A stretch of DNA of 64,000 nt from Bombyx mori (lineage: Eukaryota; Arthropoda; Insecta; Lepidoptera; Bombycidae): contig NC_085135.1 in NCBI RefSeq assembly GCF_030269925.1, positions 9,672,753 through 9,736,752 on the forward strand, in the 5' to 3' direction. The notes under the pieces were generated by a model. It was not told the DNA's origin. It did no database searches and saw only the letters and a list, made by a program, of their open reading frames with translations. Position 1 is the stretch's first letter. Each line of letters opens with the position of its first letter. This document shows positions 6,809-47,160 of the stretch, piece by piece. A program made the position numbers and the translations under genes.

Positions 6809-7042
6809 ACTGGTGGTAGGACCTCTTGGGAGTCCGCACGGGTAGGTACCACCACTCCGCCTATTTCCGCCGTGAAGCAGTAATGCGTTTCGGTTCGAAG
6901 GGTGGCGGTAGCCGTTGTAACTATACTGAGACCTTAGAACTTATATCTCGAGGTGAGTGGCGCATTTACGTTGTAGATGTCTATGGGCTCCAGTAACCAC
7001 TTAACACCAGGTGGGCTGTGAGCTCGTCCATCCATCAATGCA

Positions 7043-20200: not shown

Positions 20201-22346
20201 TCGTCTTAAAGACGTGGTGCTCGTCTTAAAGACGTGGTGCTCCAGGGGATGGAATTGTTTATCCCCTCCTCTGAAGTGCCCGTTGGGGGTCGCAGCAGAC
20301 CCTAGTATAACAATGCCAGCAGGGATGCTGCACACCTCAAGCGGTCCGCATACGTTGCATGGGATGATGCCAGGAGACGTCGGGATCCTAACATCTCAGA
20401 GGAAAGGCGGAAATATAACGCCGCTTCCAGGTCCTACAAGAAGGTTATTGCCAGGGCGAAATCGGAGCACGTTGCTAGAAGTGGCGAGCGACTGAAGAGC
20501 TATCCCTCTGGGAGCCGTGCTTTTTGGTCGCTCGCCAAAGCTGCAGAAGGAAACTTTTGCAAGTCTAGTCTCCCACCACTACGCAAGTCCGATGACAGTC
20601 TGGCCCATAGTGCGAAAGAGAAGACTGACCTTCTGGTCAAACTCTTCGCCTCGAACTCGACTGTGGACGACGGGGGTGCCACACCACCGAACATCCCTCG
20701 GTGTGATAGTTCCCTGCCGGAGATCTGCTTTACACAGTGTGCAGTCAGGCGGGAACTCCGACTCCTGGACGCCCATAAGTCGAGTGGGCCAGACGGCATC
20801 CCTGCGGTGGTTCTAAAAACGTGTGCCCCTGAGCTGACGCCTGCGCTAACGCGTTTATATCGCCTCTCTTATTGCGCTAACAGGGTTCCGTCTTCATGGA
20901 AGACCGCCCACGTCCACCCTATCCCCAAGAAGGGTGACCGGTCGGACCCATCGAGCTATAGGCCTATCGCGATAACTTCCTTGCTTTCCAAGGTGATGGA
21001 GCGAATAATTAATATACAACTCCTGAAGTATCTGGAGGATCGCCAGCTGATCAGTGACCGACAGTACGGTTTCCGTCACGGTCGCTCAGCTGGCGATCTT
21101 CTTGTATACCTTACTCACAGGTGGGCTGAAGCCTTGGAGAGCAAGGGCGAGGCTCTTGCTGTGAGCCTTGATATCGCGAAGGCCTTCGACAGGGTCTGGC
21201 ATAGGGCGCTTCTGTCGAAGCTACCATCTTACGGAATCCCCGAGGGTCTCTGCAAGTGGATCGCTAGCTTTTTGGATGGGCGGAGCATCACGGTCATTGT
21301 TGACGGTGACTGTTCTGATACCATGACCATTATCGCTGGCGTTCCACAAGGTTCGGTGCTCTCCCCCACGGTTTTCATCCTGTATATCAATGACATGCTG
21401 TCTATTGATGGCATGCATTGCTATGCGGATGACAGCACGGGGGATGCGCGATATATCGGCCATCAGAGTCTCTCTCGTAGCGTGGTGCAAGAGAGACGAT
21501 CAAAACTTGTGTCTGAAGTGGAGAACTCTATGGGGCGAGTCTCCAAATGGGGTCTTGATTCAATTCAACCCGTTAAAGACACAAGTTTGCGCGTTCACTG
21601 CGAAGAAGGACCCCTTTGTCATGGCGCCGCAATTCCAAGGAATATCCCTGCAACCTTCCGAGAGTATTGGGATACTTGGGGTCGACTTTTCGAGCGATGT
21701 CCAGTTTCGGAGTCATTTGGAAGGCAAAGCCAAGTTGGCGTCCAAAATGCTGGGAGTCCTCAACAAAGCGAAGCGGTATTTCACGCCTGGACAAAGACTT
21801 TTGCTTTATAAAGCACAAGGCCGGCCTCGCGTGGAGTACTGCTCCCATCTCTGGGCCGGGGCTCCCAAATACCAGCTTCTTCCATTTGACTCCATACAGA
21901 GGAGGGCCGTTCGGATTGTCGATAATCCCATTCTCACGGATCGTTTGGAGCCTCTGGGTCTGCGGAGGGACTTCGGTTCCCTCTGTATTTTGTACCGTAT
22001 GTTCCATGGGGAGTGCTCTGAGGAATTGTTCGAGATGACACCGGCATCTCGTTTTTACCATCGCACCGCCCGCCACCGGAGTAGAGTTCATCCATACTAC
22101 CTGGAGCGAGTTTGCGGTCATCCACAGTGCGTTTCCAGAGGTCTTTTTTGCCACGTACCATCCGGCTATGGAATGAGCTCCCCTCCACGGTGTTTCCCGA
22201 GCGCTATGACATGTCCTTCTTCAAACGAGGCTTGTGGAGAGTATTAAGCGGTAGGCAGCGGTCCCTGGCATTGCTGAAGTCCATGGGCGACGGTAACCAC
22301 TCACCATCAGGTGGGCCGTATGCTCGTCTGCCTACAAGGGCAATAA
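20201..22346 (+). mobile_element. Jockey-like LINE, 5'-truncated
   Basis: Begins within ORF2 with a 20-bp direct duplication of its own sequence (20201-20220 and 20221-20240) and ends in GTCTGCCTACAAGGGCAATAAAA. It is the same family as 12617-13905 and 61325-64000. An (AT)n tract and an LTR element follow. Confidence 0.85.
20221..22284 (+). pseudogene. ORF2 (linker, RT, C-terminus) of Jockey-like LINE, broken
   Basis: Readable from the region between endonuclease and RT (RLKDVVLQGMELFIPSSEVP). An early TAG replaces a Trp codon found in the sister copy at 61396-64000. RT motifs are in one long frame from about 20663: SSGPDGIPAVVLKT, YRPIAITSLLSKVMERI, LDIAKAFDRVWH, GVPQGSVLSPTVFILYIND and MHCYADDSTGD. 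Near 21555 the frame breaks. The C-terminal part continues in a second frame (AKLASKMLGVLNKAKRYF, ...GECSEELFEM...) with more breaks to about 22284. In a working element this enzyme nicks DNA and reverse transcribes LINE RNA at the nick; this copy is dead. Confidence 0.85.
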
Positions 22347-22359
22347 AAATATATATATA
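22347..22359. repeat. (TA)n tract, target of LTR element A
   Basis: ATATATATATATA directly before the 5' LTR of element A. The matching TATATATA follows its 3' LTR (26567-26574). Confidence 0.8.
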
Positions 22360-22733
22360 TGACGGCGTTAACGATATTTATGTTATATAGCACGTGCAAT
22401 AGGAGTGACTCACACAAGCCAGGTGCGCCGGCAGTGTCGTTCCACTCGTAAACAACAGCTGCAACAGAAGTGACTCATAAGCCAGCTGCGCCGGCTAGTA
22501 TAAAAAGGCGGAACGTGCCTTGAAATGAACATTGGTTGGACTGCGTTTGCCTGGTGCACTTACTATATCCGTGTTACGTTGTGTGATTCAGTGACTGTTG
22601 TATGTACTGGTTAAAGTTGGACAAGTGGTAAAGTGAATTGTTAAGATAACATATTGTTGATTAAATCAGGAATCAAAAAGTGACATCGTTTTACTTGGTG
22701 TTCAACAAGATAATATCTACCCTCAAGCTTACA
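22360..22733 (+). repeat. 5' LTR type 1 (374 bp), element A
   Basis: TGACGGCG...AGCTTACA. Contains a TATAAAAAGGCGGAACG promoter-like stretch near 22497. Unrelated by eye to the LTR of element B. Confidence 0.85.
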
Positions 22734-22782
22734 TCAGAAGTGGGATCAGGACTCTACTCTCACTGGCGTGACGTGTTTGAAC

Positions 22783-23047
22783 ATGTTCGAAGTACAGCAA
22801 AAAAAACATGATGCAGATCAGAATACTAGTAGTGGTACAAGAGCGTGAATGCAGCATACGTAAGTCGTGTAATAACGTTTCTGTTACCTCGATGGAAGAT
22901 CTGAGCCACGAAGAAATCGTCACATCTTACGTTCTGGCTCATGTTGCCCAGTTTGACTGTCGACTTCATCACATGGCATTTACTAACGGAAATACAACAC
23001 GTAACAAGCTATTGCAAGAAATTAAGGCAAGTGCAAATCTCAAGTGA
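22783..23047 (+). pseudogene. Gag start of element A, frameshifted
   Basis: ATG 22783 begins MFEVQQKKHDADQNTSSGT, then stops because five bases present in copy B (near 27481-27485) are missing. The rest is readable in another frame: MEDLSHEEIVTSYVLAHVAQ...LLQEIKASANLK, stop at 23047. No known domain is visible; position after the leader marks it as gag. Confidence 0.6.
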
Positions 23048-24077
23048 AACTTCGATCGCAATAATGGATCTGTCATGACGAGTGGGTAGTTCCGACACGG
23101 ATCGTTTTTAAGCCATTGACTACTGCTAGAGTTACATGGCACTAGTACAGTAAACCAGGACATGAGACTGTGAATTGTCGCTGAAATTTTAGAATCTACT
23201 CTATTCAATACCAATAACACTACACGTTCGATGACTTCGGGCTCCAGCAAGCAAGCAAACAAGAAAGCAAGCAAGTTTCCGTGGGGAAGAAAAATTGACA
23301 CATCTGAAGTCGTCGTGACCTGTAAGATAAGACGTCCGGTGCGTTCGTGTCTGGCGATGCGGCGGTGTTCGGGTTCCGCTGGCGGATGCAGGTTTTTCCG
23401 GTGAAGTGCGTGCTTGTGCGTGCTTGACATGTGTTCGCGGTTGGCTTCCTCAGTGTGGGAGTAACATCGTGTAAGAGAGGTGGAACCCGTAAAATTGTAG
23501 TTTGCGTGGTGGCTGGTAAGATTTGTTGCGGTAAGAAGTTTGCATGGTGGTAAAATGTCTTGTGAGTCTGCACAGGTAGCCGGAGGTGAGACTTCCGCGG
23601 TCGCGGCCCACCCAGTCCGCGAGAACCGGGCAGATCGCCTCGACGGTACGGAGGCCGGCCGACGGGTCCGCCAAACAACGAGACCACGCCTCCAGCACGG
23701 ACTGCCGATATTGGAGCCCCCGCGCTCCGGCTGCACTTGCGCTAGGGCGCGCCGCCTCGTAGGAGACTGTGAGGTATCATTGAATAACTCTGACTGCGAT
23801 CGCGCGCTGCCGGCGTCGCAGCGCGGCGACGTTCTAGTGGGTAAGGACGTGGCACCAGACGGGTGCTCCCTATAGTGCCATCGACCACACGGGTACCATC
23901 ACCCTGCCTATTTCTGTCGTGAAGCAGTGGTGTATTTCGGTTTGAAGGGTGGGGCAGCGGTTGTAACTATACTGAGACCTTAGAACTTCTATCTCAAGGT
24001 GTGTGGTGCGTTTACGCTGTGGATGTCTATGGTAACCACTTAACACAAGGTGGGCTGTGAGCTCGTCCACACATTAA
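23048..24077 (+). other. Captured block in element A: small ORF, 96-bp intron-like segment, antisense R1 RT piece, BMC1-like 3' end
   Basis: Three parts lie together. First, about 530 bp of unknown origin including a 57-codon ORF (23231-23404). Second, 23577-23886 is the antisense of an R1-like RT C-terminal region (minus strand reads SVLEAWSRCLADPSAGLRTV and ADWVGRDRG). Third, a 5'-truncated BMC1-like 3' end on the plus strand (about 23886-24075). The R1 piece and the BMC1 piece are joined head to head at their truncated 5' ends. The same arrangement is found in B (27695-28622) and inverted in C (33961-35000). A 96-bp stretch (23480-23575) starting GT and ending AG is absent from B. Confidence 0.8.
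23231..23404 (+). CDS. Small conserved ORF in captured block (element A)
   Basis: Begins MTSGSSKQANKKASKFPWGR, 57 codons, basic and Ser-rich with Cys in the second half, ending TGA at 23402-23404. The same ORF is at 27877-28050 in B and, longer, at 34585-34803 (minus) in C. I do not recognise the protein. Its conservation across three copies may simply reflect recent common origin rather than selection. Confidence 0.4.
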   Translation: MTSGSSKQANKKASKFPWGRKIDTSEVVVTCKIRRPVRSCLAMRRCSGSAGGCRFFR

Positions 24078-24868
24078 TACGAAGAGCATAATCAAACGAA
24101 ATTAGATACGAAGTTTAAAGGGCCGTTTAAAGTAGTTGAAGTATTGGATGGTGTCGATTTAATTTTGACTCTCACACATTCGCTTAAGGCTCGAGCTGCT
24201 ACTTGCCTCGCAAAAATACAGCCTGGTAAGATATCGTGGCCTACTATTAAAGAGATGCTGACAAAATTATCTAATGATGCAAGACCACTTCGACCTGGTT
24301 ATTAAATTTGAAATGGAAAGCAAAAAGGGACCAGCTGAAGCCGGTATCCGGCTATGGCAACTTATAAAGAAGATTCCCGACGCTAATGTGCCAGAACAAA
24401 TAGCCACCGGATTTGTTATATCAATACTGTCGCAGTGTGATGAAAGAATCCGTCGGGAATTGAACTCTGTCGTTATTACCACAAAAAATCGTCTATTTCA
24501 CACATTACGTGGCTTTACCCTCAAAAGAAAAAACGAAGATCCTGATAAAGGACCAAAACGCTCTCGAAGTTTTTTTCCGTGGAAGCTGCCATTTCTGCGG
24601 AAAATCTGGGCATCGTGCCGAAGGGTGTTGCGACAGATACTGCTCTCAAACTTTTTTCGATATTCCAGCAAAACCTGAACAACCTCCTCATCCGTGGGCG
24701 CCCGGCTCTCGTCTGCAAGTCAGCTGTTACGTGTGCGGTGATGCGAGTCATGTAGCTTCTGGGTGTTCCATGCGCTACAAGAAGAAAAACGACACTGCTC
24801 CAGGTGCTGTGGCAGGTGCAACCAGAGACGTCAACGTGTGTTCCAGAGCTTCAGTGTGTTACAGATAA
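24078..24868 (+). pseudogene. Integrase C-terminal scrap fused to gag with two zinc knuckles (element A)
   Basis: From 24078 the frame reads YEEHNQTKLDTKFKGPFKVV (GPF/Y module of a gypsy integrase C-terminus). It then passes in frame at about 24147 into gag-like sequence (VDLILTLTHSLKARAATCL). Gag continues around DHFDLVIKFEMESKK and IRLWQLIKKIPDANVPEQIA. A T7 run near 24570 marks a frameshift, after which two knuckles are readable: CHFCGKSGHRAEGC and CYVCGDASHVASGC. Normally gag precedes pol, so the integrase scrap before gag shows recombination between element copies. Confidence 0.7.
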
Positions 24869-24879
24869 GTGGTTTTGGC

Positions 24880-25569
24880 TTCCCCTTTATGTTCCATTCA
24901 GGGTCAGAATGTAGTCTTATAAAACAAAGTCATAGTAATTTATTCAATGGTAAGCGGTTTCATGAACAAGTCACTCTTTGATCTGAAAGTAACTTAGACC
25001 AATCATGATGGTAAGAGCACTTAGGGGATATTCAACTCGCCCTTAATAGTGCACGTTGTCGAGTAACAGGGTTTACTCCAATAGAATAGACGTTTGCCGT
25101 TCAGGGTAGTTCACTTGAAATATCTTAAAGTTTCAACAGAGTGATAATCCCTCTAGATTAGATCTTGATTTAGCACGGTCGAAGACCGGCGAAAACATAA
25201 AAAAAAGGGCACAAACAGAAGCTTGGTTTAGTCGAGGCAAAGCTAAAGTCAACCTCTTTTCCGCTGGGGATTTTGTTTTCGTAAGTTGACCGAAAATGTA
25301 AAGGTCCCTTCAACATTACTGCAGTTTTGGAAAACGATAGGTATAAATTGAGACATGTAAATAGTTCTAATAGAGTGTACAAATTTCCCCATGAAAACTT
25401 ACGTGAAATACCTCGAGGCCCGTCAGGCCTACTAGAAATTTCTGAAAATTATAGTGACGATGACGTGACGGCGTACACAGATGGGTTAATTAATCTTGTT
25501 CATGAAACTGATCTTAATGATGACGACTCTATCACTGACAATAGAAGCGACATTTTTGTCCGCAAATAG
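24880..25569 (+). pseudogene. Protease and integrase remnants of element A
   Basis: MFHSGSECSLIKQS (about 24889) is the protease active-site region with a degraded DSG. At about 25027 DIQLALNSARCRVTGFTPIE is an integrase core end, so protease C-terminus, RT and RNase H are deleted between. QAWFSRGKAKVNLFSAGDFV (about 25215) and DRYKLRHVNSSNRVYKFP (about 25335) are the integrase C-terminus. An acidic tail (DLNDDDSITDNRSDIFVRK) ends at 25569. Several stops and shifts interrupt it. Confidence 0.7.
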
Positions 25570-25739
25570 CGATACAGCAAACATAGTCTGTGGGTAGTGA
25601 TACAATGTCTGTAAGCTCAGGCACCTCAGGTGCAGGTGTTGGAAATGTAGAAAACGATGGTCGGTCTCGCACTATTTCTGAAGAAATTCCGTATAAATGT
25701 TCTGGTTTAAGAAATGTTTTAACAAACGCTACCGTACAC

Positions 25740-26192
25740 GCAGATTAAAAAAAAAAAAAAGAGAAAAAAAAAAAAAAAAAAAAAGTGTGAAGTAATTGAA
25801 GGGTCTGCCCGGTCCAATGGCTTGGCTATAGGGATTTTCATCCAGATTAGCCACAACAATTAGCTACAGGGATTGCGATTCGGTCTAGCATTATCCGGTC
25901 CAGTTCGAAAAACTGAAGGGATAACAATTCCGGTCTAAGTTAAAAGGGACATACTTACATACCTGAAGAGTTTTAAATGAACTGGCCCAGGTATGTAAGC
26001 AGTCTGAAGGTTAATTATAGCCGGTATAGGATTTTCTGAAGAATTATGCGAACCGAACCGTACTAGATTGTTAATATCATAGACCACGTTTTAAGTTGCA
26101 TCCGTTAATGTCAGGATGAACGAACACGTTTGTTGTTCACAGACATACCATAAGAATGCGCGCACGAGGACGAGCGCACGTCAGTATGGCCG
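25740..26192 (+). repeat. A-rich tract and hairpin-prone 3' noncoding region of element A
   Basis: An A-rich tract (25745-25783) is followed by short inverted sequences around AGGGAT-type loops, for example GGCTATAGGGATTTTC...TAGCC (about 25824-25853) and TAGCTACAGGGATTGCG...TAGC (about 25861-25890). The region ends GTCAGTATGGCCG next to the 3' LTR, the same as in element B. Confidence 0.5.
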
Positions 26193-26566
26193 TGACGGCG
26201 TTAACGATATTTATGTTATATAGCACGTGCAATAGGAGTGACTCACACAAGCCAGGTGCGCCGGCCGTGTCGTTCCACTCGTAAACAACAGCTGCAACAG
26301 AAGTGACTCATAAGCCAGCTGCGCCGGCTAGTATAAAAAGGCGGAACGTGCCTTGAAATGAACATTGGTTGGACTGCGTTTGCCTGGTGCACTTACTATA
26401 TCCGTGTTACGTTGTGTGATTCAGTGACTGTTGTATGTACTGGTTAAAGTTGGACAAGTGGTAAAGTGAATTGTTAAGATAACATATTGTTGATTAAATC
26501 AGGAATCAAAAAGTGAAATCGTTTTACTTGGTGTTCAACAAGATAATATCTACCCTCAAGCTTACA
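26193..26566 (+). repeat. 3' LTR type 1, element A
   Basis: 374 bp, almost identical to 22360-22733, followed by TATATATA. Confidence 0.85.
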
Positions 26567-26574
26567 TATATATA

Positions 26575-26936
26575 TGTTAGCTTGAGGGTAGATATTATCT
26601 TGTTGAACACCGAGTAAAACGAAGTCACCTTTGGTTTCTGATTTAATCAACAATATGTTAACTTGACAATTCACTTTAACACTTGTCCAACTTTAACCAG
26701 TACGTACAACAGTCACTGAATCACACAACGTAACAACGATATAGTAAGTGCACCGGGCAAACGCAGTCGAACGAATGTTCATTTCAAGGCACGTTCCGCC
26801 TTTTTATACTAGCCGGCGCAGCTGGCTTATGAGTCACTTCTGTTGCGCGAGTGGAACGACACGGCCGGCGCACCCGGCTTGTGTGAGTCACGCCTGTTGC
26901 ACGTGATGTTTATTAGAAATATTGTTAACGCCGTCA
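26575..26936 (-). repeat. Inverted solo LTR of type 1
   Basis: Reverse complement of the element A LTR with scattered changes and about 12 bp shorter; flanked by TATATATA (26567-26574) and a (TA)n tract (26937-26954). A solo LTR usually forms by recombination between the two LTRs of an insertion. Confidence 0.85.
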
Positions 26937-26954
26937 TATATATATATATATATA

Positions 26955-27375
26955 TGTCGTGGATAACGACTTTAGTTGTCGTGGATAACGACTTTTAGTA
27001 ATATTAAGACGGTGGTTTTGATTATTATTTTAAATGATGAAATGTTGTTTTGGTAAATATCACAAAATGAAGGGTAGACTACGTAACGCCACAGTATAAA
27101 ATGGCGGTACGTGGACAGAGTCGTGGCATTCCGTGTCAGACAGTCATTCCGTCCGTCTCAGTCGGTGAGTCTCTGACAGTCAGTCAGTCAGTCAGTCGGT
27201 CTGTCGGTATGTGCAACGAAACTGTCGGTTTATCCTGTCATTGTGAAAGTTGTGTGTGTTGAGTTTCAATAATTATTATTCAAAAGGTTTTATTGACTTT
27301 TTATAAACTGTGCTCAATCAAATACGAGTGATGACGGAAACTACCGCTCAGCCATCCCTGGCGTGTGAGCCGACA
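26955..27375 (+). repeat. 5' LTR type 2 (421 bp), element B
   Basis: Begins with a tandem TGTCGTGGATAACGACTTT pair, contains TATAAAATGGCGGTACG near 27097 and (CAGT)n repeats near 27178, and ends GTGAGCCGACA. Preceded by (TA)n. Confidence 0.85.
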
Positions 27376-27424
27376 TCAGAAGTGAGATCAGGACTCTACT
27401 CTCACTGGCGTGACGTGTTTGAAC

Positions 27425-27694
27425 ATGTCCGAAGTACAGCAAAAAAAACATGATGCAGATCAGAATACTAGTAGTGGTACGCCACAAGAGCGTGAATGCA
27501 GCATACGTAAGTCGTGTAATAACGTCTGTGTTACCTCGATGGAAGATCTGAGCCACGAAGAAATCGTCACATCTTACGTTCTGGCTCATGTTGCCCAGTT
27601 TGACTGTCGACTTCATCACATGGCATTTACTAACGGAAATACAACACGTAACAAGCTATTGCAAGAAATTAAGGCAAGTGCAAATCTCAAGTGA
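27425..27694 (+). CDS. Gag start (89 codons) of element B
   Basis: ATG 27425 begins MSEVQQKKHDADQNTSSGTP and stays open to TGA at 27692-27694, ending LLQEIKASANLK. It is the unbroken version of the frameshifted copy in A. No Cys/His knuckle or capsid motif is visible; it is probably the N-terminal part of gag left after the rest was replaced by the captured block. A second copy, degraded, lies inverted at about 34990-35480 in C. Confidence 0.6.
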   Translation: MSEVQQKKHDADQNTSSGTPQERECSIRKSCNNVCVTSMEDLSHEEIVTSYVLAHVAQFDCRLHHMAFTNGNTTRNKLLQEIKASANLK

Positions 27695-28622
27695 AACTTC
27701 GATCGCAATAATGGATCTGTCATGACGAGTGGGTAGTTCCGACAAGAATTATTTTAAGCGGCTGACTTCTGCTAGAGTTACATGGCACTAGTGCAGTAAA
27801 CCAGGACATGAGACTGTGAATTGTCGCTGAAATTTTAGAATCTACTAGATTCAATACCAATAACACTGCACGTTCGATGACTTCGGGCTCCAGCAAGCAA
27901 GCAAACAAGAAAGCAAGCAAGTTTCCGTGGGGAAGAAAAATTGACACATCTGAAGTCGTCGTGACCTGTAAGATAAGACGTCCGGTGCGTTCGTGTCTGG
28001 CGATGCGGCGGTGTTCGGGTTCCGCTGGCGGATGCAGGTTTTTCCGGTGAAGTGCGTGCTTGTGCGTGCTTGACAAGTGTTCGCGGTTGGCTTCCTCAGT
28101 GTGGGAGTAACATCGTGTAGGAGAGGTAGCCGGAGGTGAGACTTCCGCGGTCGCGGCCCACCCAGTCCGCGAGAACCGGGCAGATCGCCTCGACGGTACG
28201 GAGGCCGGCCGACGGGTCCGCCAAACGACGAGACCACGCCTCCAGCACGGACTGCCGAGATTGGAGCCCCCGCGCTCCGGCTGCACCTGCGCTATGGCGC
28301 GCCGCCTCGTAGGAGACTGTGAGGTATCCTTGAATAACTATGACTGCGATCGCGCGCTGCCGGCGTCACAGCGCGGCGACGTTCTCGTGGGTAAGGACGT
28401 GGCACCAGACGGGTGCTCCGTATAGTGCCATCGACGCACGGGTACCATCACCCTGCCTATTTCTGCCGTGAAGCAGTGGTGTATTTCGGTTTGAAGGGAT
28501 GCAAATATACTGAGACCTTAGAACTTCTATCTCAAGGTGTGTGGTGCGTTTACGCTGTGGATGTCTATGGGTTCCAGTAACCACTTAACACAAGGTGGGC
28601 TGTGAGCTCGTCCACACATTAA
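27695..28622 (+). other. Captured block in element B (lacks 96-bp GT-AG segment)
   Basis: Same order as in A: unknown sequence with the small ORF (27877-28050), antisense R1-like RT piece (about 28126-28436), BMC1-like 3' end (about 28437-28620). At 28125 GAGAGG joins TAGCCGGAGG directly, where A has 96 extra bases that start GT and end AG. Confidence 0.8.
27877..28050 (+). CDS. Small conserved ORF in captured block (element B)
   Basis: Starts MTSGSSKQANKKASKFPWGR, the same length (57 codons) as in A. Unknown function. It lies upstream of the intron-like position, so it would be in a first exon if the block is spliced in this direction. Confidence 0.4.
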   Translation: MTSGSSKQANKKASKFPWGRKIDTSEVVVTCKIRRPVRSCLAMRRCSGSAGGCRFFR

Positions 28623-28778
28623 TTCGAAGAGCGTAATCAAACGAAATTAGATACGAAGTTTAAAGGGACGTTTAAAGTAGTTGAAGTATTGGATGGTGAC
28701 CGTTACACATTGAAAGCTTTAAATTCAAAACGTACTTACAAATACCCACATGATAGGCTAAGAAAAATGCCAGCATGA
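28623..28778 (+). pseudogene. Integrase C-terminal remnant of element B
   Basis: Reads FEERNQTKLDTKFKGTFKVV, then LNSKRTYKYPHDRLRKMPA and a stop at 28776-28778. This is the GPF/Y-like end of a gypsy Pol. It abuts the 3' end of the captured BMC1-like piece, marking the downstream edge of the capture. Confidence 0.65.
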
Positions 28779-29574
28779 CACATACCAGTCGAGGTTGATG
28801 TAAATGATGATGATGAAGAGCAAGCTTAAATTGTGGTGAAAACTCGAGTAAGGATAGTCTATCGGCCGTATTGTGTTCGACCGTACCAGTAGCTATTACG
28901 TAGTCGTAGCCCGGTAGAAATCGGTGTCTCTTGAGGCAACTCAAGTAGTCCGTGGGTGCGCGGTGCGCGTTTGGCTCTGGCGGAGGTCGGGGTCTGTAAA
29001 GACCATCGTGTGTAGTCAGCGGGTGATGCACACGGGCGATCCACGCTGTGGATGCGCATCATGAGGGCAATTGCGATTGCTGGTCGGCTGGAGAGCCGTG
29101 GCGTTAGATATTTTTACTCGGAAGTTTTCTTTGATCTGAGTTCCTGTAAGCTATGCCTGATTTGTACAGAGTAAATTTGAAGTTTGATGAACGACTGTGG
29201 TACGTGCTCTGGCTGCTGAATAGTGAACTTTGTATACCCTATTGTTTGATATGGTTAAAATGGTATTAAAACAGTTTAAAGCTTTGATGACTTTAAAGTT
29301 TCCGATAAGTCGTAAAGTGTAGTCAGGAGTGATCGAGCGGAACAAGTGTTCTCGTGGATGTTTTTGATTGTAGGTTAACCATCACACGAGGACATGTACA
29401 ATCAGGAAGACCATGTCGCAATCAACACGTGATTGCTGCAGCCAATACGAGATATGGGACGCAAGCACAGTCTGTCGGCGCTCGATGGGTCAACTATTCA
29501 CCGGCCGAGCGGAGCGACGTGCCGGTAGCTGCGTAATATCGGGCAATTTTGGTAAATAAGAACAATCTGGTGAG
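28779..29574. other. Unassigned internal DNA of element B
   Basis: About 800 bases after the Pol stop with no recognisable coding sequence; an acidic run (about 28800-28830, DVNDDDEEQA) resembles the Pol tail of element A. Confidence 0.4.
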
Positions 29575-29787
29575 TCGTATTATTTTTATTTGGATTCGGG
29601 TGCCGAATGCTCTCTTGTCAAGAAATCTATTAGTAGTAGCTTAATAATTCAGCAATTTTATACGATGGTTCTCATAAAAGGTTTCTGTTGTTTTGACTCA
29701 AAACTGTACGGGACAAATCCTATGTTGTATGTCATGTACTACCTGATAGTTGTTTTAATCGGTTCAGTGAGATTGAGCATTCAGTGA
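29575..29787 (+). pseudogene. Protease scrap of element B
   Basis: FYLDSGAECSLVKKS (about 29583-29630) is an aspartic protease active site (DSGA). It lies downstream of the integrase end, the wrong order for an intact element. The same scrap is inverted in C at about 33690-33830. Confidence 0.6.
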
Positions 29788-30204
29788 AATAGAACACTTA
29801 AATCTAGTGTCCTTATTCGAAGCCCAGACTTGCGTTATTGATGACCAAGCTCGCGATGAGCTCATGGAATTGTTCTTGACAAGAAGTGCTAGAAGCCGTA
29901 CATCTTTTTAAAATTATTCTACCATAAGAATAACAGAGGCGAGCCCCTTCGAATTCTTAATAGTTCGCGTACCATATCCCTAAAGGTTTTTACTTAAAAT
30001 GATACTGAAAGTAAGAGATTAACTTTGACGAGACCAGAACATTGGAAAGTTAGTAAAATTTGATGTTGAATTTTGTTGAAATGAAGATAGATGGCTTTAA
30101 CTGGTAATAGAACCTATGATTACATAAGTTGCCTCTAAGTAGTGCTACTGACGAGACTGATCAGTGAGGTGAGAGTATCTCCATCGATTGGTACAGCGGA
30201 GACC
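29788..30204. other. Unassigned AT-rich internal DNA of element B
   Basis: About 400 bases without a recognisable gene or repeat. Confidence 0.4.
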
Positions 30205-30760
30205 TGGGTCTCAATGGAGACTATTGTTGTGTTGGTCTAGTAATGACTTTGACTCTATATTGTGAAATGATGTGTATTGGTTTTATCATTTGTTTTAATG
30301 ATAATGTGGGTGGCAATGTCACTAGCTGCGCCGGCAGCCAGGCCAGGAGCGTTCTATAGATGTAGGATCAAATAACCACGATACAACTGACTGATTAAAT
30401 TAAGGATTTTGTTGTCCTATTTTGCGTGATTAGTAAAGAACAGTATTCAGTGTTATTTATGACTGGTAATTGAACACCTCGCTCGATTTAGGTGATGTGT
30501 TCGTTTTATTGCCGGATGGAGGCATTGTGATGTGTTTTATGGTTGAAGTGGGTACTGGATGGAAGTTCCACTTGCGTGCCGGATGGAGGCATTAGTGTTT
30601 TGTGTTCAAGTTGGGTACCGGATGGAGGTCCCACTTATTTGCCGGATGGAGGCAATAAGTAATCAAGAGCTACTCGATGGAGGTGGCACTTGAATAGGGT
30701 TATCGTCACTCGATATAGGTGGCATGAGTTACTCTCACTAGGTGGAAGTCATTGTAACGA
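30205..30760 (+). repeat. Array of short hairpins with GGATGGA-type loops, 3' region of element B
   Basis: At least six units share a loop GGATGGA or close variants between complementary arms: GTCTCAATGGAGAC (about 30211), TTGCCGGATGGAGGCA (30520s), GTGGGTACTGGATGGAAGTT (30550s), TGCCGGATGGAGGCA (30580s), GGGTACCGGATGGAGGTCCC (30610s) and CTTATTTGCCGGATGGAGGC (30630s). The arms differ between units but remain complementary within each. Confidence 0.7.
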
Positions 30761-31058
30761 TAGTTTGTGGTTAATACAGAATACTGATGAAATACTGCTC
30801 AGATTGAGTTGTTTTGTAATAACTCGGGTTTCTAATGCTTATTGAGCATTAATGAAATTTTTCAGTTTAGATCACAGGTTAACATAGTCTGTTAAAGATC
30901 TTGTTGAGAGCTAACGTTATGCTTTGTAATGAAAGGAATCCCAATCCTCAATCGTGAATGTATCAGGATTGGCCGAGACGAAACCTGTTTAATATTGCAA
31001 AAGGTTGTTTTCCTTGCAGGAGCGTCACACAGGGACGTGTAACATGTCAGTATGGCCG

Positions 31059-31379
31059 TGTCGTGGATAACGACTTTAGTTGTCGTGGATAACGACTTTT
31101 AGTAATATTAAGACGGTGGTTTTGATTATTATTTTAAATGATGAAATGTTGTTTTGGTAAATATCACAAAATGAAGGGTAGACTACGTAACGCCACAGTA
31201 TAAAATGGCGGTACGTGGACAGAGTCGTGGCATTCCGTGTCAGACAGTCATTCCGTCCGTCTCAGTCGGTGAGTCTCTGACAGTCAGTCAGTCAGTCAGT
31301 CGGTCTGTCGGTATGTGCAACGAAACTGTCGGTTTATCCTGTCATTGTGAAAGTTGTGTGTGTTGAGTTTCAATAATTA
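31059..31379 (+). repeat. 3' LTR type 2 of element B, truncated
   Basis: Matches the first 321 bases of 26955-27375, then passes into CACACTTCACACACACAC at 31380. The last 100 bases are missing. Confidence 0.85.
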
Positions 31380-31404
31380 CACACTTCACACACACACACA
31401 CACA
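31380..31404. repeat. (CA)n junction between two truncated, facing LTRs
   Basis: CACACACACACACACA separates the truncated ends of the B LTR (plus) and the C LTR (minus). Confidence 0.8.
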
Positions 31405-31754
31405 ATAATTACACAATTACAACTTTCACAATGACAGGATAAACCGACAGTTTCGTTGCACATACCGACAGACCGACTTGACTGACTGTCAGAGACTCAC
31501 TGACTGAGACGGACGGAATGACTGTCTGACACGGAATGCCACGACTCTGTCCACGTACTGCCATTTTATACTGTGGCGTTACGTAGTCTACCCTTCATTT
31601 TGTGATATTTACCAAAACAACATTTCATCATTTAAAATAATAATCAAAACCACCGTCTTAATATTACTAAAAGTCGTCAACCACGACACGGCCATTCTGT
31701 CACTTTGACGTTTGTGTATCGTTGATATTCCGAACTATTGACCCGGATGCGACA
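31405..31754 (-). repeat. 3' LTR of element C, truncated
   Basis: Inverted type 2 LTR. Its outer end is lost at the (CA)n junction; the inner end GGATGCGACA is present. Confidence 0.75.
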
Positions 31755-31920
31755 CGGCCATCCTGTGTTACACACGTCCTCGTGTGTTAATCTGAAACAA
31801 AAGCCAATACCGCACAGTATCATTCACGCTCGGCCATATCTGACCACTCTACTAAAATAAAAGTAGTGATTTACTACTGCTGCAAGTTCTCCCCGTACAA
31901 TTCATGTACACAGTAACTAA

Positions 31921-32656
31921 GTCATCCCTGTGACTACAAGTGTTCAATGATAGTCATCCCTGTGACTACAAGTGTTCAATGATAGTCATCCCTGTGACTA
32001 CAAGTGTTCAATGATAGTCATCCCTGTGACTACAAGCGTTCAATGATAGTCATCCCTGTGACTACAAGCGTTCAATGATAGTCATCCCTGTGACTACAAG
32101 CGTTCAATGATAGTCATCCCTGTGACTACAAGCGTTCAATGATAGTCATCCCTGTGACTACAAGCGTTCAATGATAGTCATCCCTGTGACTACAAGCGTT
32201 CAATGATAGTCATCCCTGTGACTACAAGCGTTCAATGATAGTCATCCCTGTGACTACAAGCGTTCAATGATAGTCATCCCTGTGACTACAAGCGTTCAAT
32301 GATAGTCATCCCTGTGACTACAAGTGTTCAATGATAGTCATCCCTGTGACTACAAGTGTTCAATGATAGTCATCCCTGTGACTACAAGTGTTCAATGATA
32401 GTCATCCCTGTGACTACAAGTGTTCAATGATAGTCATCCCTGTGACTACAAGTGTTCAATGATAGTCATCCCTGTGACTACAAGTGTTCAATGATAGTCA
32501 TCCCTGTGACTACAAGTGTTCAATGATAGTCATCCCTGTGACTACAAGTGTTCAATGATAGTCATCCCTGTGACTACAAGTGTTCAATGATAGTCATCCC
32601 TGTGACTACAAGTGTTCAATGATAGTCATCCCTGTGACTACAAGTGTTCAATGATA
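31921..32656. repeat. Minisatellite part 1: 23 units of 32 bp
   Basis: Unit GTCATCCCTGTGACTACAAG plus TGTTCAATGATA, in exact 32-bp register from 31921 to 32656. Units 4 to 12 carry GCGTT instead of GTGTT, so the variant is clustered in one block. The core GTCA-TCCCTG-TGAC is self-complementary at its ends. Confidence 0.95.
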
Positions 32657-33686
32657 GTCATCCCTGTGACTCTAATCGACAGTCATCCCTGTGACTCTAA
32701 TCGACAGTCATCCCTGTGACTCTAATCGACAGTCATCCCTGTGACTCTAATCGACAGTCATCCCTGTGACTCTAATCGACAGTCATCCCTGTGACTCTAA
32801 TCGACAGTCATCCCTGTGACTCTAATCGACAGTCATCCCTGTGACTCTAATCGACAGTCATCCCTGTGACTCTAATCGACAGTCATCCCTGTGACTCTAA
32901 TCGACAGTCATCCCTGTGACTCTAATCGACAGTCATCCCTGTGACTCTAATCGACAGTCATCCCTGTGACTCTAATCGACAGTCATCCCTGTGACTCTAA
33001 TCGACAGTCATCCCTGTGACTCTAATCGACAGTCATCCCTGTGACTCTAATCGACAGTCATCCCTGTGACTCTAATCGACAGTCATCCCTGTGACTCTAA
33101 TCGACAGTCATCCCTGTGACTCTAATCGACAGTCATACCTGTGACTCTAATCGACAGTCATACCTGTGACTCTAATCGACAGTCATCCCTGTGACTCTAA
33201 TCGACAGTCATCCCTGTGACTCTAATCGACAGTCATCCCTGTGACTCTAATCGACAGTCATCCCTGTGACTCTAATCGACAGTCATCCCTGTGACTTTAA
33301 TCGACAGTCATCCCTGTGACTCTAATCGACAGTCATCCCTGTGACTCTAATCGACAGTCATCCCTGTGACTCTAATCGACAGTCATCCCTGTGACTCTAA
33401 TCGACAGTCATCCCTGTGACTCTAATCGACAGTCATCCCTGTGACTCTAATCGACAGTCATCCCTGTGACTCTAATCGACAGTCATCCCTGTGACTCTAA
33501 TCGACAGTCATCCCTGTGACTCTAATCGACAGTCATCCCTGTGACTCTAATCGACAGTCATCCCTGTGACTCTAATCGACAGTCATCCCTGTGACTCTAA
33601 TCGACAGTCATCCCTGTGACTCTAATCGACAGTCATCCCTGTGACTCTAATCTACAGTCATCCCTGTGACTCTAATCGACAGTCAT
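32657..33686. repeat. Minisatellite part 2: 41 units of 25 bp
   Basis: Unit GTCATCCCTGTGACTCTAAT plus CGACA, in 25-bp register from 32657 to 33681 plus five bases of a further unit. It shares the first 15 bases with part 1. Rare variants: CATACCTG in two adjacent units near 33135, GACTTTAAT near 33294, ATCTACA near 33650. Confidence 0.95.
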
Positions 33687-33960
33687 GGTCAAAGCAACAG
33701 ACCCTTTATGAGAACCATCGCATACATTTCCTGAGTTATGAAGCTACTACTAATAGATTTCTCGACAAGAGAACATTCGGCAACAGATTCCAAATAAAAA
33801 TAAAACGACTCACCAGATTTTTCTCATTTACCAAAATACCCGATGCTACGCAGCTACCGGCACGTCACGGCGTCGCTCCGCTGCTGCGTTGCTCGCGGTC
33901 GTCGATGACATCGCGCCATCAATTTGCCTCGGCGGCAACTCGAGGCAATGTTTTTGCTTA
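33687..33960 (-). pseudogene. Protease scrap and adjoining DNA of element C
   Basis: On the minus strand the protease scrap known from element B (29583-29700) is recognisable with substitutions (near 33690-33800). The flanking DNA also matches B around 29500-29575. Confidence 0.5.
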
Positions 33961-35000
33961 GATGGGTGGACTATGCACGAGCTCACAGCCCACCTGGTGC
34001 CATGTAGTTACTGGACCCCACAGACATCCACAACGCAAACGCGTCATCCACCCCGAGATACAAGTTCCAAGGTCTCAGAATAGCTACAACCACTGTCCCA
34101 CCATTCAAACTGAAATACACACTGCTTCACGGCAGAAATAGGCAGGGTGATGGTACCCGTGCGGTCGATGGCACTATACGGAGCACCCGTCTGGTGCCAC
34201 GTCCTTACCCACGAGAAAGTCGCCGCGCTGCGACGCCGGCAGCGCGCGATCGCAGTCAGAGTCATTCAAGGATACCTCACAGTCTCCTACGAGGTGGCGC
34301 GCCCTAGCGCAAGTGTAGCCGGAGCGCGGGGGCTCCAAACTCGGCGGTCCGTGCTAGAGGCGTGGTCTCATCGTTTGGCGGACCCGTCGGCCGGCCTCCG
34401 TACCATCGAGGCGATCTGCCTGGCTCTCGCGGACTGGGTAGGCCGCGACCGCGGAAGACTCACCTCCGGCTACCTGTGCAGACTCACAAGACATTTTACC
34501 ACCACGCAAACTTTTTACCACAGCAAATCTTACCAGCCACCACGCAAACTACAATTTTACGGGTTCCACCTCTCCTACACGATGTTACTCCCACACTGCG
34601 GAAGCCAACCGCAAACACTTGTCAAGCACGCACAAGAAAAACTTGCATCCGCCAGCGGGACCCGAACACCGCCGCGTCGCCAGACACGAACGCACCGGAC
34701 GTCTTATCTTACAGGTCACGACGACTTCAGACGTGTCAATTTTTCTTCCCCACGGAAACTTGCTTGCTTTCTTGTTTGCTTGCTTGTTGGAGCCCGAAGT
34801 CATCGAACGTGTAATGTTATTGGTATTGAATCTAGTAGATTCTAAAATTTCAGCGACAATTCACAGTCTCATGTCCTGGTTTACTGCACTAGTGCCATGT
34901 AACTCTAGCAGTAGTCATTGACTTAAAAACGATTCGTGTCGGCACTACCCACTTAGCTTGTTACGTGTCGTATTTCCGCTAGTAAATGCCATGTGATAAG
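33961..35000 (-). other. Captured block in element C (retains 96-bp GT-AG segment)
   Basis: BMC1-like 3' end on the minus strand (33961-34146), joined to an R1-like RT C-terminal piece on the plus strand (34160-34480, SMALYGAPVWCHVLTHEKVA and VLEAWSHRLADPSAGLRT). Then the intron-like segment (about 34480-34577), then the region with the small ORF (34585-34803). The order is the same as in A and B. Confidence 0.8.
34585..34803 (-). CDS. Small conserved ORF in captured block (element C), 72 codons
   Basis: Starts MTSGSNKQANKKASKFPWGR. It lacks the stop that ends the A and B versions because of a small length difference near 34640 and runs to ...CLRLASAVWE. Function unknown. Confidence 0.4.
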   Translation of the reverse strand: MTSGSNKQANKKASKFPWGRKIDTSEVVVTCKIRRPVRSCLATRRCSGPAGGCKFFLCVLDKCLRLASAVWE

Positions 35001-35501
35001 TCGAGAGTCAACTGGGCAACATGAGCCAGAACGTAAGATGTGACGATTTCTGCGTGGCTCAGATCTTCCATCGAGGTAGCAGACGTTATTACACGACTTG
35101 CGTATGCTGCATTCACGCTTTTGTGGCTTACCATTGCTTAAATTGATAAGCGTCGCAGCAAGAATTTTGCATAACGAGCGAGAAATAAGTCGCAAATGCC
35201 TCCATGTGACACTTACTTGTGAAATCCGCGACAACATGATAAGGCACCGCTTTTCAGGGCCCCACTGAAGACTACAATGAGCTATGCACCATCCAGTAGA
35301 CGTTCATCGAGGTACATATCAACCGTAGCGCACCAAGCACATGGATCGGCATCTGTCTGTTCCCGATGAATTTCCGACCCGTGATCTCACATACCGTTAC
35401 TGGTATTCTGATTTCTGATCTGCATCATGTTTTTTCGCTGTACTTCGAACATGTTCAAATACGTCACGCCAGTGGCAGTAGAGTCCTGATCTCACTTCTG
35501 A
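35001..35501 (-). pseudogene. Degraded gag start and leader of element C
   Basis: Read leftwards from the leader at 35501, it resembles the gag start of A and B (FEVQRK..., QERECSIRKSCNN) with insertions and stops. About 200 bases (35140-35400) are not in A or B. Confidence 0.5.
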
Positions 35502-35961
35502 TGTCGTAGGCGGTGGGGCAGGGATGGCTGAGCGGTAGTTTCGTCATCACTCATATTTGGTTGAACTCAGTTTATAAAAAGTCAATAAAACCTTTTGAAT
35601 AATAATTATTGAAACTCAACACACACAACTTTCACAATGACAGGATAAACCGACAGTTTCGTTGCACATACCGACAGACCGACTTGACTGACTGTCAGAG
35701 ACTCACTGACTGAGACGGACGGAATGACTGTCTGACACGGAATGCCACGACTCTGTCCACGTACCGCCGTTTTATAACTGTGGCGTTACGGAGTCTACCC
35801 TTCATTTTGTGATATTTATCAAAACAACATTTCATCATTTAAAATAATAATCAAAACCACCGTCTTAATATTACTAAAAGTCGTCAACCACGACACGGCC
35901 ATTCTGTCACTTTGACGTTTGTGTATCGTTGATATTCCGAACTATTGACCCGGATGCGACA
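35502..35961 (-). repeat. 5' LTR of element C (type 2 variant, 460 bp)
   Basis: Inverted. Shares the (CAGT)n and TATA-like parts of the B LTR but its 5' end is longer and starts TGTCGCATCCGGG. Flanked by TATATATATA at 35962. Confidence 0.75.
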
Positions 35962-36348
35962 TATATATATATTTAATTTATTACTTTTTTAAAATAAATA
36001 AATGCAGAACAAACAATTATTAACAGTGAACAATCAAGAACAAATGATGAACAAATGAATGAATAGAAAATAAGTATAAAATAGGAAAAAAAAATTTTTT
36101 TAGGGGCTAACTTAATTCACCTAGTTTTTGACCGTTCTACTAAGGAAAAGAACAGTAATTAATAAATTAAACTAAATACAATATTAATTATATATATAGG
36201 TATGTACCATGGAGTTAATGGGTATGTACTTACTTATAATTGTATATTATTTACAGTAAGAAATAAACATAACTTTTTATATACATTATGATTTAAAGAT
36301 GAAAGCAAAACAGGAACAGATGTAGGTAACGGAATACTCGAAGAAGGA
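35962..36348. other. AT-rich 3' UTR-like DNA of an I-like LINE
   Basis: Starts with (TA)n and continues AT-rich up to the RNase H ORF; probably the 3' UTR of the minus-strand LINE fragment. No gene seen. Confidence 0.45.
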
Positions 36349-45308: not shown

Positions 45309-45526
45309 AGTTAAGTTACGGCGAACGAGATAATTATAAAAAAAAGAATTTATTTAATTAAAACGATGTTTATTCGTTTGAATGTACTACAAGACTAATT
45401 TATAATTACAATATATTTATTAAAGTAAACTTATTGCTAAATCTGCAATGGTGCAGTTTCTGTTATGACGCACGGGGTCATCCGATGTGGATTCAGCAAA
45501 TACGGGCATCGGGCGATTGCCTAACT
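45309..45526 (-). repeat. 3' LTR of errantivirus
   Basis: 218 bp, intact; the end of env lies inside it. Confidence 0.9.
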
Positions 45527-47160
45527 CCTCCCTCCTTAAGATAGAAGCGCGTCCCGCAGCTTCCAGCAGCGTCCTCGGTGCTAGTGTTCTCGGGGCTCTC
45601 GTTCTTTGATTGTAGTCGTCGCTGTCTCCACTGCCACAGCTTCCAGATGATTATTGCTATCAGAATGAGGTAGAGTCCCAGTGTTGACCAACTTGGGGTA
45701 GTCATCATAGTCTGCCAGTCGATGATAGGTTGTTGAATGTTTTCGACCCGGTCCATCAGTTCGTGGATGCTATCCAGAGATATATCTTTCAGTTGTAGGT
45801 TATAGCGAATATTCCCTTCTAGAATAGTGGTTTCGCTGGGAATGGGTACGATTTCATCAGCTGTAATAGTGTCCGTGTTTGTCTTCAGTGTTCGGTTGAA
45901 TATTTCCACTTGACAATCGCTTGTAATGCTGGCGATGTATATTCCTGACATCTTTTTATAGTCAGATTTCCTTCCGCAGCGAGATTTCAGGATTTGTTCG
46001 TCTTTCAAGATGATAAGCCATTTGTTGTCTTCTAGTCTCTGGATCTTGCCTTGTTTCAGGTTCATCCTGGCACGGGTGCAGTTTGTGCTCTCGTGTTTTA
46101 TAAGAGTTACTATGCAGTCTTCAGAGTTCTCCACAGGTTGGGTATTCAGCGATGTGCAGAGTTGGACGTCTTGTGTGATCTTCTTGCAATCTTCCTCCAG
46201 GTATGAGTACTCGTTGGTTCCCAGTGCTAGGTATTTGGATTTAGGAATAATGGTGAGGTTTTGTTTATCTGGTATGGAGTATAGATGGATAAGGTCATAA
46301 AGGTTTTCATCTATGGAAGGGATATCTAGTATGAATGTTAGTGCGTCGTTTGTGCTATACGCTTTTACGCTAATAGAGCTCTCTATACTATGAATATTTT
46401 TAATACTTATTCTATCAACGGGTCTAAATTGGTAAAGTTTTTGAATAGCTGTTATTTCACTTATAAGACTGTGTGGAGCTATAATGCTAGGATGCATTAC
46501 TTCTAGTTGTGCAAAGGTCATGGCGTCTTCTAATATAACTAATTTATCTAAGAGTAATTGCAAACTAAAATATATTTGGATATATAAATCTAAAAAGTGC
46601 AATCTGCTTATTACTACGTTATTACTTAAAGTGGCGTTTTTTAACATTGAACCTATCTTTTTCTGATTTTCGTCTAATAACTTGATCTGTTTACTAAATT
46701 CTTCAACTGCGTGCTTTGCTATGAATAAAGTTTGTTTTTGAGATATTTTAATATTATGGACTGAATTACGTAGATTAGATAATTCATTTTCAAACTTAAT
46801 AGCGTCTTCATAATCCAGATTACCTGTAATAGTTTTAACTACTGAACCTAAACCGTTAATTAAGCCACGTCTAAATCTATGGTGCGGTGCAATAAATGCT
46901 AACTTCTTCCCTATTAAATGTAAACTATTTTCTATTTGATCCTTATATGCTCTATGCAACTCTTCGTTACCTTCAGCAGCTTTAGTACTGGCATATAAAG
47001 ACATAAGCTTTAAGGTTGTTTCATGTAAATACGATACGTTATATACGCAGGCCAGACTAAAAGTGTCTATCTGCTTCAAAATTTGTCCTTGTTTTAACAA
47101 AAGGATGCCATTAGTATTGTCTATAGGATTAAGGGTCAAGTCGGCGGCTGTGTAGAGCAC
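45493..47160 (-). CDS. Errantivirus envelope protein (F-like fusion glycoprotein)
   Basis: About 555 open codons. The first codon shown is GTG. The frame continues upstream over the pol end with a hydrophobic stretch (TLIAGAFVLYTAADLT) that may be the signal peptide; in errantiviruses env is made from a spliced mRNA, so the true start is likely outside this frame. A furin-type site RFRR is followed by GLINGLGSVV (fusion-peptide-like), as in baculovirus F-type envelopes. A transmembrane segment (LGLYLILIAIIIWKLW) lies near the C-terminus. The last codons run through the polypurine tract into the 3' LTR. The protein would sit in membranes and mediate fusion. No stop or frameshift is seen; function is untested. 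Confidence 0.85.
   Translation of the reverse strand: MLYTAADLTLNPIDNTNGILLLKQGQILKQIDTFSLACVYNVSYLHETTLKLMSLYASTKAAEGNEELHRAYKDQIENSLHLIGKKLAFIAPHHRFRRGLINGLGSVVKTITGNLDYEDAIKFENELSNLRNSVHNIKISQKQTLFIAKHAVEEFSKQIKLLDENQKKIGSMLKNATLSNNVVISRLHFLDLYIQIYFSLQLLLDKLVILEDAMTFAQLEVMHPSIIAPHSLISEITAIQKLYQFRPVDRISIKNIHSIESSISVKAYSTNDALTFILDIPSIDENLYDLIHLYSIPDKQNLTIIPKSKYLALGTNEYSYLEEDCKKITQDVQLCTSLNTQPVENSEDCIVTLIKHESTNCTRARMNLKQGKIQRLEDNKWLIILKDEQILKSRCGRKSDYKKMSGIYIASITSDCQVEIFNRTLKTNTDTITADEIVPIPSETTILEGNIRYNLQLKDISLDSIHELMDRVENIQQPIIDWQTMMTTPSWSTLGLYLILIAIIIWKLWQWRQRRLQSKNESPENTSTEDAAGSCGTRFYLKEGGVRQSPDARIC
45527..45541 (-). promoter_or_regulatory. Polypurine tract of errantivirus
   Basis: On the minus strand AAGGAGGGAGG directly precedes the LTR start AGTTAGGC; this is the primer site for plus-strand DNA. 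Confidence 0.75.

Follow-up and report, generated by a model that had tools for sequence, protein, structure and literature searches.

How did three neighbouring retrotransposons of the silkworm Bombyx mori come to carry the same block of foreign sequence? The three are long terminal repeat (LTR) elements, here called A, B and C, in a 64-kb window (G000:C29:9672753-9736752), the window being the whole stretch of DNA analysed; the genome searched with their sequences comprises 461.7 Mb in 30 contigs. With a probability of about 0.8, we read them as products of a defective LTR family, F2, that carries a short interspersed nuclear element (SINE) with an R1 patch as cargo, descends from an edited founder, includes copies made from spliced RNA, and has exchanged sequence with a second LTR family, F1. 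At somewhat lower confidence, the DNA also makes it likely that RNA editing acted here as a heritable mutator: an ADAR-edited RNA would have founded several hundred copies and been passed by recombination to a second LTR family.

Layout of the three elements

When we compared the region with the whole window by blastn and aligned the three copies, we found a block of about 1 kb common to A (22360-26566), B (26955-31379), and C (reverse strand, 35961-31419), with the R1/BMC1 junction at about 23887, 28437, and 34158, respectively. The features of the three elements are as follows.

22360..22733, + strand: 5' LTR of A (type LTR_A, family F1), TGACGG...TTACA, with 2 differences from the 3' LTR in 372 sites compared
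22733..22742, + strand: crossover 1, at the presumed primer-site word ATCAGAAGTG common to F1 and F2; in cargo-free F1 (L080), LTR_A and ATCAGAAGTG are followed by another leader, where A goes on with the F2 leader
22734..23047, + strand: F2-type leader and truncated gag start, 97.7-99.1% like B in two parts
23048..23283, + strand: stretch preceding the SINE, not A-poor (A 32% over 23081-23283)
23284..23579, + strand: left part of the SINE, A-to-G hypermutated (A>G 30/61 vs T>C 2/55 relative to the majority sequence of 16 free copies)
23580..23886, - strand: antisense patch of R1-type open reading frame (ORF), internally deleted, 92% and 82% like window 53746-54156, with letters common at both seams
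23887..24069, + strand: right part of the same SINE (BMC1-like 3' end), from comparison with free copies
24070..24153, + strand: F2 pol-end piece, from its translation, with 3 differences from B in 84 sites
24143..24153, + strand: crossover 2, at ATTGGATGGTG, common to the F2 pol end and F1 gag (native F1 gag in L075 and L079)
24154..24900, + strand: F1 gag remnant with two CCHC-like knuckles (by eye); it contains 24226-24668 (GTAAGA...TTCCAG), absent from 9 other copies
25281..25580, + strand: F1 pol-end remnant, from its translation
26193..26566, + strand: 3' LTR of A, from window blastn and alignment
26955..27375, + strand: 5' LTR of B (type LTR_B, family F2), identical to 31059-31379 over 321 bp
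27376..28830, + strand: leader, gag start, SINE/R1 block (lacking the GT-AG stretch 23480-23575 of A), and pol end of B
29499..29707, + strand: gag end and protease remnant of B, 84% like C 33886-33679
31059..31379, + strand: 3' LTR of B, cut short
31419..31754, - strand: 3' LTR of C, cut short, with 4 substitutions and 1 indel relative to the 5' LTR in 336 sites
33960..34953, - strand: block of C, in which the right SINE part is A-to-G hypermutated too (A>G 12/38 vs T>C 0/51)
35502..35961, - strand: 5' LTR of C (LTR_B-like)

The earlier note on this DNA had described A, B and C as one kind of element bearing one block with the same junctions, composed of unknown DNA, an R1 piece, and a BMC1-like end joined head to head. 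The common block and its R1/BMC1 junction held up; the full agreement did not. Unlike A and B, C does not continue from the SINE into a pol-end piece; it is further distinguished by the absence of 69 bp (23012-23080 of A) and by an additional segment of about 280 bp. B lacks 96 bp of A, the GT-AG gap listed above. Nor are the elements of one kind, the LTR of A being of another type than those of B and C: beyond its pol-end piece, A has gag, protease, and another pol end that come from a different LTR family, and we read A as an F1/F2 recombinant. Apart from 23048-23283, the supposed head-to-head composite proved on comparison with free copies to be a single SINE split by an antisense R1 patch.

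Divergence between the blocks (Kimura two-parameter distance 0.033 for A-B, 0.069 for A-C, and 0.072 for B-C, thus 0.03-0.07) exceeds that within the LTR pairs (0.005 for A, 0 for B, and 0.012 for C), so the block is older than the insertions in the window. No ORF longer than 134 aa was found on the coding strand of A, no reverse transcriptase was noted among the translations of its frames, and a similarly short layout is seen in the other copies read.

Both F1 and F2 have ATCAGAAGTG beside the 5' LTR, at the place expected of a primer-binding site, which it may well be. The zinc knuckle and protease words and the GPF-type pol end, all recognized by eye, would suit a Ty3/Gypsy element; Pfam searches of two gag pieces of A gave matches below the cut-off for one and none for the other. 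Just 5' of the 3' LTR, A and B have CAGTATGGCCG and C has GATGGCCG, which would fit a common machinery. The segment of about 280 bp in C (window 35134-35412) belongs to the leader of some copies with LTR_B/C, occurring also in L059 and in part in L029, and may be native or inserted. From the protease remnant to its 3' end, C holds two tandem arrays with 32-bp and 25-bp units (about 31890-33685).

A SINE split by an antisense R1 patch

Free copies elsewhere in the genome show that 23284-23579 and 23887-24069 of A are the two halves of one SINE with the R1 patch between them. These free copies, of which there are thousands of first-look candidates, aligned to a majority sequence of 439 bp, with a head that is tRNA-like by eye and a BMC1-like tail; we take Bm1 and BMC1 to be the proper SINE and LINE (long interspersed nuclear element) names for these parts. 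The patch, which following the earlier note we presume to be R1, matches the region of a window ORF at 53359-54159 (53746-54156) at 92% and 82%, and a similar window copy adjoining the ORF at 57923-59089 (RVT_1) at 78-80%. An internal R1 stretch (96 bp in the alignment) is gone from it, and several copies have lost part of the patch.

The seams of the patch have TAG and CCGCAC in common with SINE copies, for instance at 6815 and 19160 (by eye). The patch is what a reverse transcriptase that left its template and rejoined it would give. We also considered a normal target-primed R1 insertion flanked by a duplication of GCACRGGTA, and dropped it: because letters are common at both seams, the duplication is unnecessary, and by eye the patch lacks the R1 3' end. 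Four copies, L068-L071, break near one point of the patch and go on into different 3' parts, and one of these gaps is GT-AG. All of the cargo that we could identify is mobile-element debris rather than a host gene.

An A-to-G scar common to the cargo copies

As reference for substitutions we used the majority of 16 free SINE copies (one copy and 15 of its best matches). Against it, the left SINE part of A differs by A>G at 30/61 sites, T>C at 2/55, G>A at 4/46, C>T at 2/39, and by 12 transversions (Fisher p 1.3e-8). The same excess is found in B (21/42 vs 2/42) and C (28/56 vs 2/55), and the 16 free copies have 0-2 A>G each over their length relative to their own majority. Neither the alignment nor the reference accounts for it: nine aligner settings gave 24-31 A>G vs 1-4 T>C, and taking each of the 16 free copies in turn as reference gave 27-32 vs 1-5.

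The cargo copies read are a few dozen of hundreds and come from five samples. In the left SINE part of 50 of them there are always 21-31 A>G and 1-3 T>C, and the 30 sites changed in A are G in 44-50 of the 50, of which a few are mutual duplicates. Since the sites are nearly the same in all 50, the copies read descend from one changed molecule. A>G does not predominate among the later variants of 28 copies with LTR_A (21 A>G, 14 T>C, 51 G>A, and 29 C>T).

The right SINE part is changed in C (12 A>G vs 0 T>C) and in L029 (11 vs 0), and the other 48 copies have 3-8 A>G (mostly 4) vs 0-3 T>C. Since C and A differ at 29/185 sites in the right part vs 4-6% in other parts, A and B may have had their right part replaced; either this happened, or the duplex was partial. 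L021, L022, L039, and L040 have a common extra set of A-to-G changes in the right part (positions 32, 77, 121, and, where read, 157) with few other changes, perhaps from a second editing event or from recombination with the C lineage.

Judged by composition, the burst appears confined to the SINE: the leader is 33% A, the stretch before the SINE 32%, and the left SINE part 19%. A past burst limited to a repeat able to pair with antisense copies looks ADAR-like, with editing presumably having taken place in the RNA itself. PMC7469206 describes a silkworm ADAR that is mainly nuclear.

Biased errors of reverse transcription under a nucleotide pool imbalance, with no part for ADAR, could also yield a one-sided burst. 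Such biased hypermutation is known in principle, and the lack of a clear neighbour preference at the changed sites would suit it. We consider this unlikely, since the leader and the preceding stretch are still 32-33% A and since C has the burst in the other SINE half too; a duplex partner explains why the burst is limited to the SINE halves, whereas pool imbalance does not.

Exchange between two LTR families

LTR_A and the LTR of B and C gave no match to each other in the window blastn, a 22-nt stretch around a TATA-like box being all that they have in common, and yet the 5' internal parts of the elements that bear them match. In a tree of 50 blocks, the 34 copies with LTR_A fall on one side of a branch and the other 16 on the other side (support 91/89; 94% of 200 bootstrap trees), and the LTR type label changes once on the tree, whose root is uncertain.

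A word from F1 gag was found at 138 places in the genome, and we read six of them, picked from places without a match in the block-query list. Three have the F2/F1 seam. Two, L075 and L079, both on C29 and alike over 188 letters, have native F1 gag in an open frame without cargo. On the 5' side of L075 lie LTR_A (95%), then ATCAGAAGTG, then a leader unlike that of A. The sixth, L077 (G000:C29:2807588-2807775), has F1 gag joined to a different sequence and is a further chimera. From the structure of cargo-free F1 it follows that A consists of an F1 LTR, an F2 leader, cargo, and pol-end piece, and F1 gag onward. Of the two crossovers of A, one falls on the 10 nucleotides that F1 and F2 share where the primer site is presumed, the other on the 11 nucleotides of ATTGGATGGTG. 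It is thus well supported that one later event moved the F2 5' part with its cargo into F1, giving the type of element that A represents.

Alternatively, insertions could have exchanged their LTRs as DNA, through gene conversion or unequal recombination. Copies of both families are neighbours in the window, and short shared words can guide an exchange in DNA as well. Strand transfer between two RNAs, however, predicts crossover 1 at the primer-site word and fits crossover 2, whereas DNA exchange could use the same words yet does not predict crossover 1; moreover, both LTRs of A are of one type. An exchange in DNA is therefore about as improbable as pool imbalance is for the scar.

Introns lost precisely by some copies

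With A as the ruler and a threshold of 40 bp, we listed 13 gaps (69-1035 bp) in other copies, three entries being one gap, which leaves 11 distinct gaps. Five of the 11 can be placed exactly as GT...AG, compared with 0.8% of random gaps of the same sizes.

22859/22952: GT-AG gap in L017
23470/23576: GT-AG gap in L069 and L070
23479/23576: GT-AG gap in B
23768/24804: GT-AG gap in L069
24225/24669: GT-AG gap in 9 copies; to within 1 bp, L019 and L023 appear to have it as well

Exact GT-AG gaps indicate that these copies were made from spliced RNA that was copied back into the genome. The loss of 24225/24669 in 9 copies may trace to one or a few events.

A multi-copy family inserted by retrotransposition

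The word spanning the R1/BMC1 junction occurs at 332 places in the genome (183 + 149, allowing at most 3 mismatches), and its reversed control at none. A query with the block gave 40 full-length matches at 97-100% identity, on C29 and many other contigs, these being the 40 scored among 6106 first-look candidates. An LTR lies directly 5' of the cargo in 56/56 sampled copies with enough flank (20/20, 7/7, 14/14, 6/6, and 9/9 in the five samples). It was LTR_A or part of LTR_A in 20/20 and 7/7 of the top block matches, LTR_A in 6 and the B/C type in 8 of the 14 junction places, and the B/C type in 6/6 pol-end places; at edited-word places an LTR was found in 9/10, the sequence taken for the tenth not including its 5' side. 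None of the sampled cargo copies was seen outside an LTR element.

All 17 copies read at both ends are flanked by 4-bp target duplications, among them TATA, TACA, AATA, CATA, TGTA, TATG, TATC, TACC, and CACT. The two LTRs differ at 0-3 sites in 16/17 (some compared in part, over 90-373 sites) and at 19/368 in L028. The 5' flanks, compared for 18 copies over 600 bp each, are unlike save for short weak matches in two pairs. The same junctions are present in A and 27 best-match copies; B agrees save for its gap, and C departs after the SINE. The proposal of the earlier note that the block was captured once and then retrotransposed as a mobile family is borne out by the separate LTR pairs, the target duplications, the unlike flanks, the precisely lost introns, the genome-wide junction count against its control, and the LTRs of the sampled copies; the block outside LTR elements, which it had suggested looking for, did not turn up among them.

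On contig C29, the pairs L004/L005, L006/L007, and L008/L028 have identical or near-identical blocks, and in L006/L007 and L008/L028 the last flank letters agree too; each pair is probably a duplicate of one insertion. The members of L004/L005 and of L006/L007 are oppositely oriented, possibly within large inverted duplications. L028 and L008 have identical blocks, and the 5' LTR of L008 is only 91% like LTR_A; this is perhaps an LTR mixture that was then duplicated. At G000:C10:12897047-12911025, four junction matches at exactly 4649-bp spacing form a tandem array of family copies. About 1 kb downstream of its first R1/SINE junction, L035 (G000:C6:12836159-12839091) has another, partial one, past the pol end and the next stretch and inside the same element, a partial internal duplication. 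Contig C29 (11.2 Mb, with a window dense in nested repeats) may be the W chromosome.

The A-to-G excess could mark an old or divergent SINE subfamily that was never edited. Other differences between the cargo and the free-copy majority amount to about 10%, as such a subfamily would have; the excess is nevertheless one-sided (30 vs 2), also against a more divergent free copy (35 vs 3). The G-rich edited word, moreover, occurs at 364 places in the genome and at none for the controls, and the 10 fetched among the 100 listed all lie in this LTR family. We regard a subfamily origin as a little less probable than either pool imbalance or exchange in DNA.

The cargo might also have been kept for a function, such as providing antisense R1 sequence from which small RNAs against R1 are made. 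The R1 patch is antisense to the RNA of the element, and the silkworm W is named as a source of PIWI-interacting RNAs in a reference title in PMC3849828. Against this, variants are about as frequent in the R1 patch (45/309 columns) as in the leader (40/319) among 28 copies, a count made without a constraint test, and the patch is incomplete in several copies. No sign of a cargo function was seen, function not having been tested directly; selection for one is very unlikely, and the cargo is probably a passenger.

That A, B, C, and other copies are segmental duplicates of one locus is hardly credible despite the C29 pairs: 4-bp duplications differ, 5' flanks are unlike (the matching outside flanks that the earlier note had named as the mark of such duplicates are missing from A, B, and C), LTR types differ, and block divergence exceeds LTR divergence, so that duplications and flanks rule it out for A, B, C, and most of the 17 two-ended copies.

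Proposed history and points against it

In the history that we favour, a defective LTR retrotransposon, F2, probably of the Ty3/Gypsy kind, would have taken a SINE copy with an antisense R1 patch into its gag region, the patch perhaps arising by template switching of the reverse transcriptase of the element. SINE RNA may then have paired with antisense SINE RNA in the nucleus and been edited by ADAR, and one edited RNA, once reverse transcribed, would have become the founder of the cargo copies. New insertions with 4-bp duplications followed, some of them made from spliced RNA. Because one crossover coincides with the presumed primer site and the other with 11 nucleotides common to both families, F1 and F2 are likely to have exchanged sequence through template switching between two RNAs. 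Because A has no reverse transcriptase and its short layout recurs in the other copies read, we infer that the family was moved by the proteins of a helper, in trans as the earlier note proposed. If RNA editing did act as a heritable mutator, the additional A-to-G sets of the C lineage and of L021, L022, L039, and L040 would mean that editing occurred more than once.

Several observations weigh against this history. ADAR prefers U or A before the edited site and avoids G; among the 30 sites no clear preference of this kind is seen (edited after T 8/13, C 5/10, A 12/26, and G 5/12). The right SINE part is little changed in A (A>G 4/42), B, and most copies, and 4 of 10 edited-word copies lack it, their R1 running into other element parts. 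An unedited cargo parent was not found: a pattern search gave 3 places, all with 3 mismatches, which we read as chance matches to SINE copies. An F2 helper was not found either, all 6 places fetched in the pol-end search being cargo elements again. The stretch 23048-23283 is left without a source, and 6 of the 11 distinct gaps cannot be placed as GT-AG. The support for the LTR_A group, 91/89, is below the level that the tree program marks with a star; only two cargo-free F1 copies were read, one of them with its LTR; and 27 of the few dozen copies read are best block matches.

Other features of the window

Three features of the window lie beside or between the elements or their LTRs.

26575..26936, - strand: lone LTR of type LTR_A, inverted and within the same TA-rich tract, 7.5% different from the LTR of A in 360 sites
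31380..31418, no strand: CA-rich filler between B and C, whose cut 3' LTRs it joins tail to tail
22345-22359, 26567-26574, 26937-26954, and 35962-35975: TA-rich tracts that hold A, the lone LTR, and the B-C pair

As all of these insertions lie in TA-rich tracts, target preference rather than duplication may explain the cluster. RNA reading through from B into C, by way of the tail-to-tail 3' LTRs, would make a long hairpin and a possible ADAR substrate. Elsewhere, three adjoining long ORFs (357, 1241, and 555 aa) at 45493-52039 (- strand) have by eye the gag/pol/envelope-like look of another LTR element, and a 536-aa ORF at 10362-11972 (- strand) has the look of a pogo/Tigger-type transposase.

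Comparison with known systems

We found no report of an A-to-G editing scar fixed in a multi-copy retroelement among the titles and abstract openings listed, in which few subscription papers were covered, and no description of this LTR family among the papers listed; a term search of the available portion of PMC2999431 gave no match for the family. Patch capture, RNA editing, splicing, recombination between LTR families, and spread would all be readable from DNA in a single lineage. This makes it possible to test how often RNAs processed in the nucleus, edited or spliced, return to the genome, and whether retroelements inherit mutations from ADAR, as has been reported for APOBEC.

The earlier note had likened the family to a transducing retrovirus. 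Transducing retroviruses and maize Bs1 likewise have foreign sequence in a defective LTR element, multiplication by reverse transcription, and a likely capture by template switching. The likeness holds for the mechanism, in which two RNAs would have served as templates, but not for the cargo, which here is a SINE with an R1 patch and no host gene; two LTR families are involved as well. Non-autonomous LTR families of the kind called LARDs (large retrotransposon derivatives) also keep their LTRs and ends, have apparently lost coding, and have many copies; they differ from the present family in that it has a mobile-element cargo with an editing-type scar and two LTR types. The cargo SINE resembles the Bombyx SINE Bm1 and LINE BMC1 in the head and BMC1-like tail that it has in common with free copies, and differs in being split by R1 and hypermutated. 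The closest parallel to the scar is the 'DNA editing' of retrotransposons by APOBEC, for which PMC2873906 describes clustered one-strand substitutions in genomic retroelement copies; those are G-to-A clusters, whereas the changes here are A-to-G, as expected of ADAR acting on RNA, and, in the copies read, would have been fixed once and then multiplied. A defective LTR family with captured sequence is thus a known kind of element; what the present family adds is a scar of the A-to-G editing type that was inherited, spliced forms copied back into the genome, and an exchange between LTR families.

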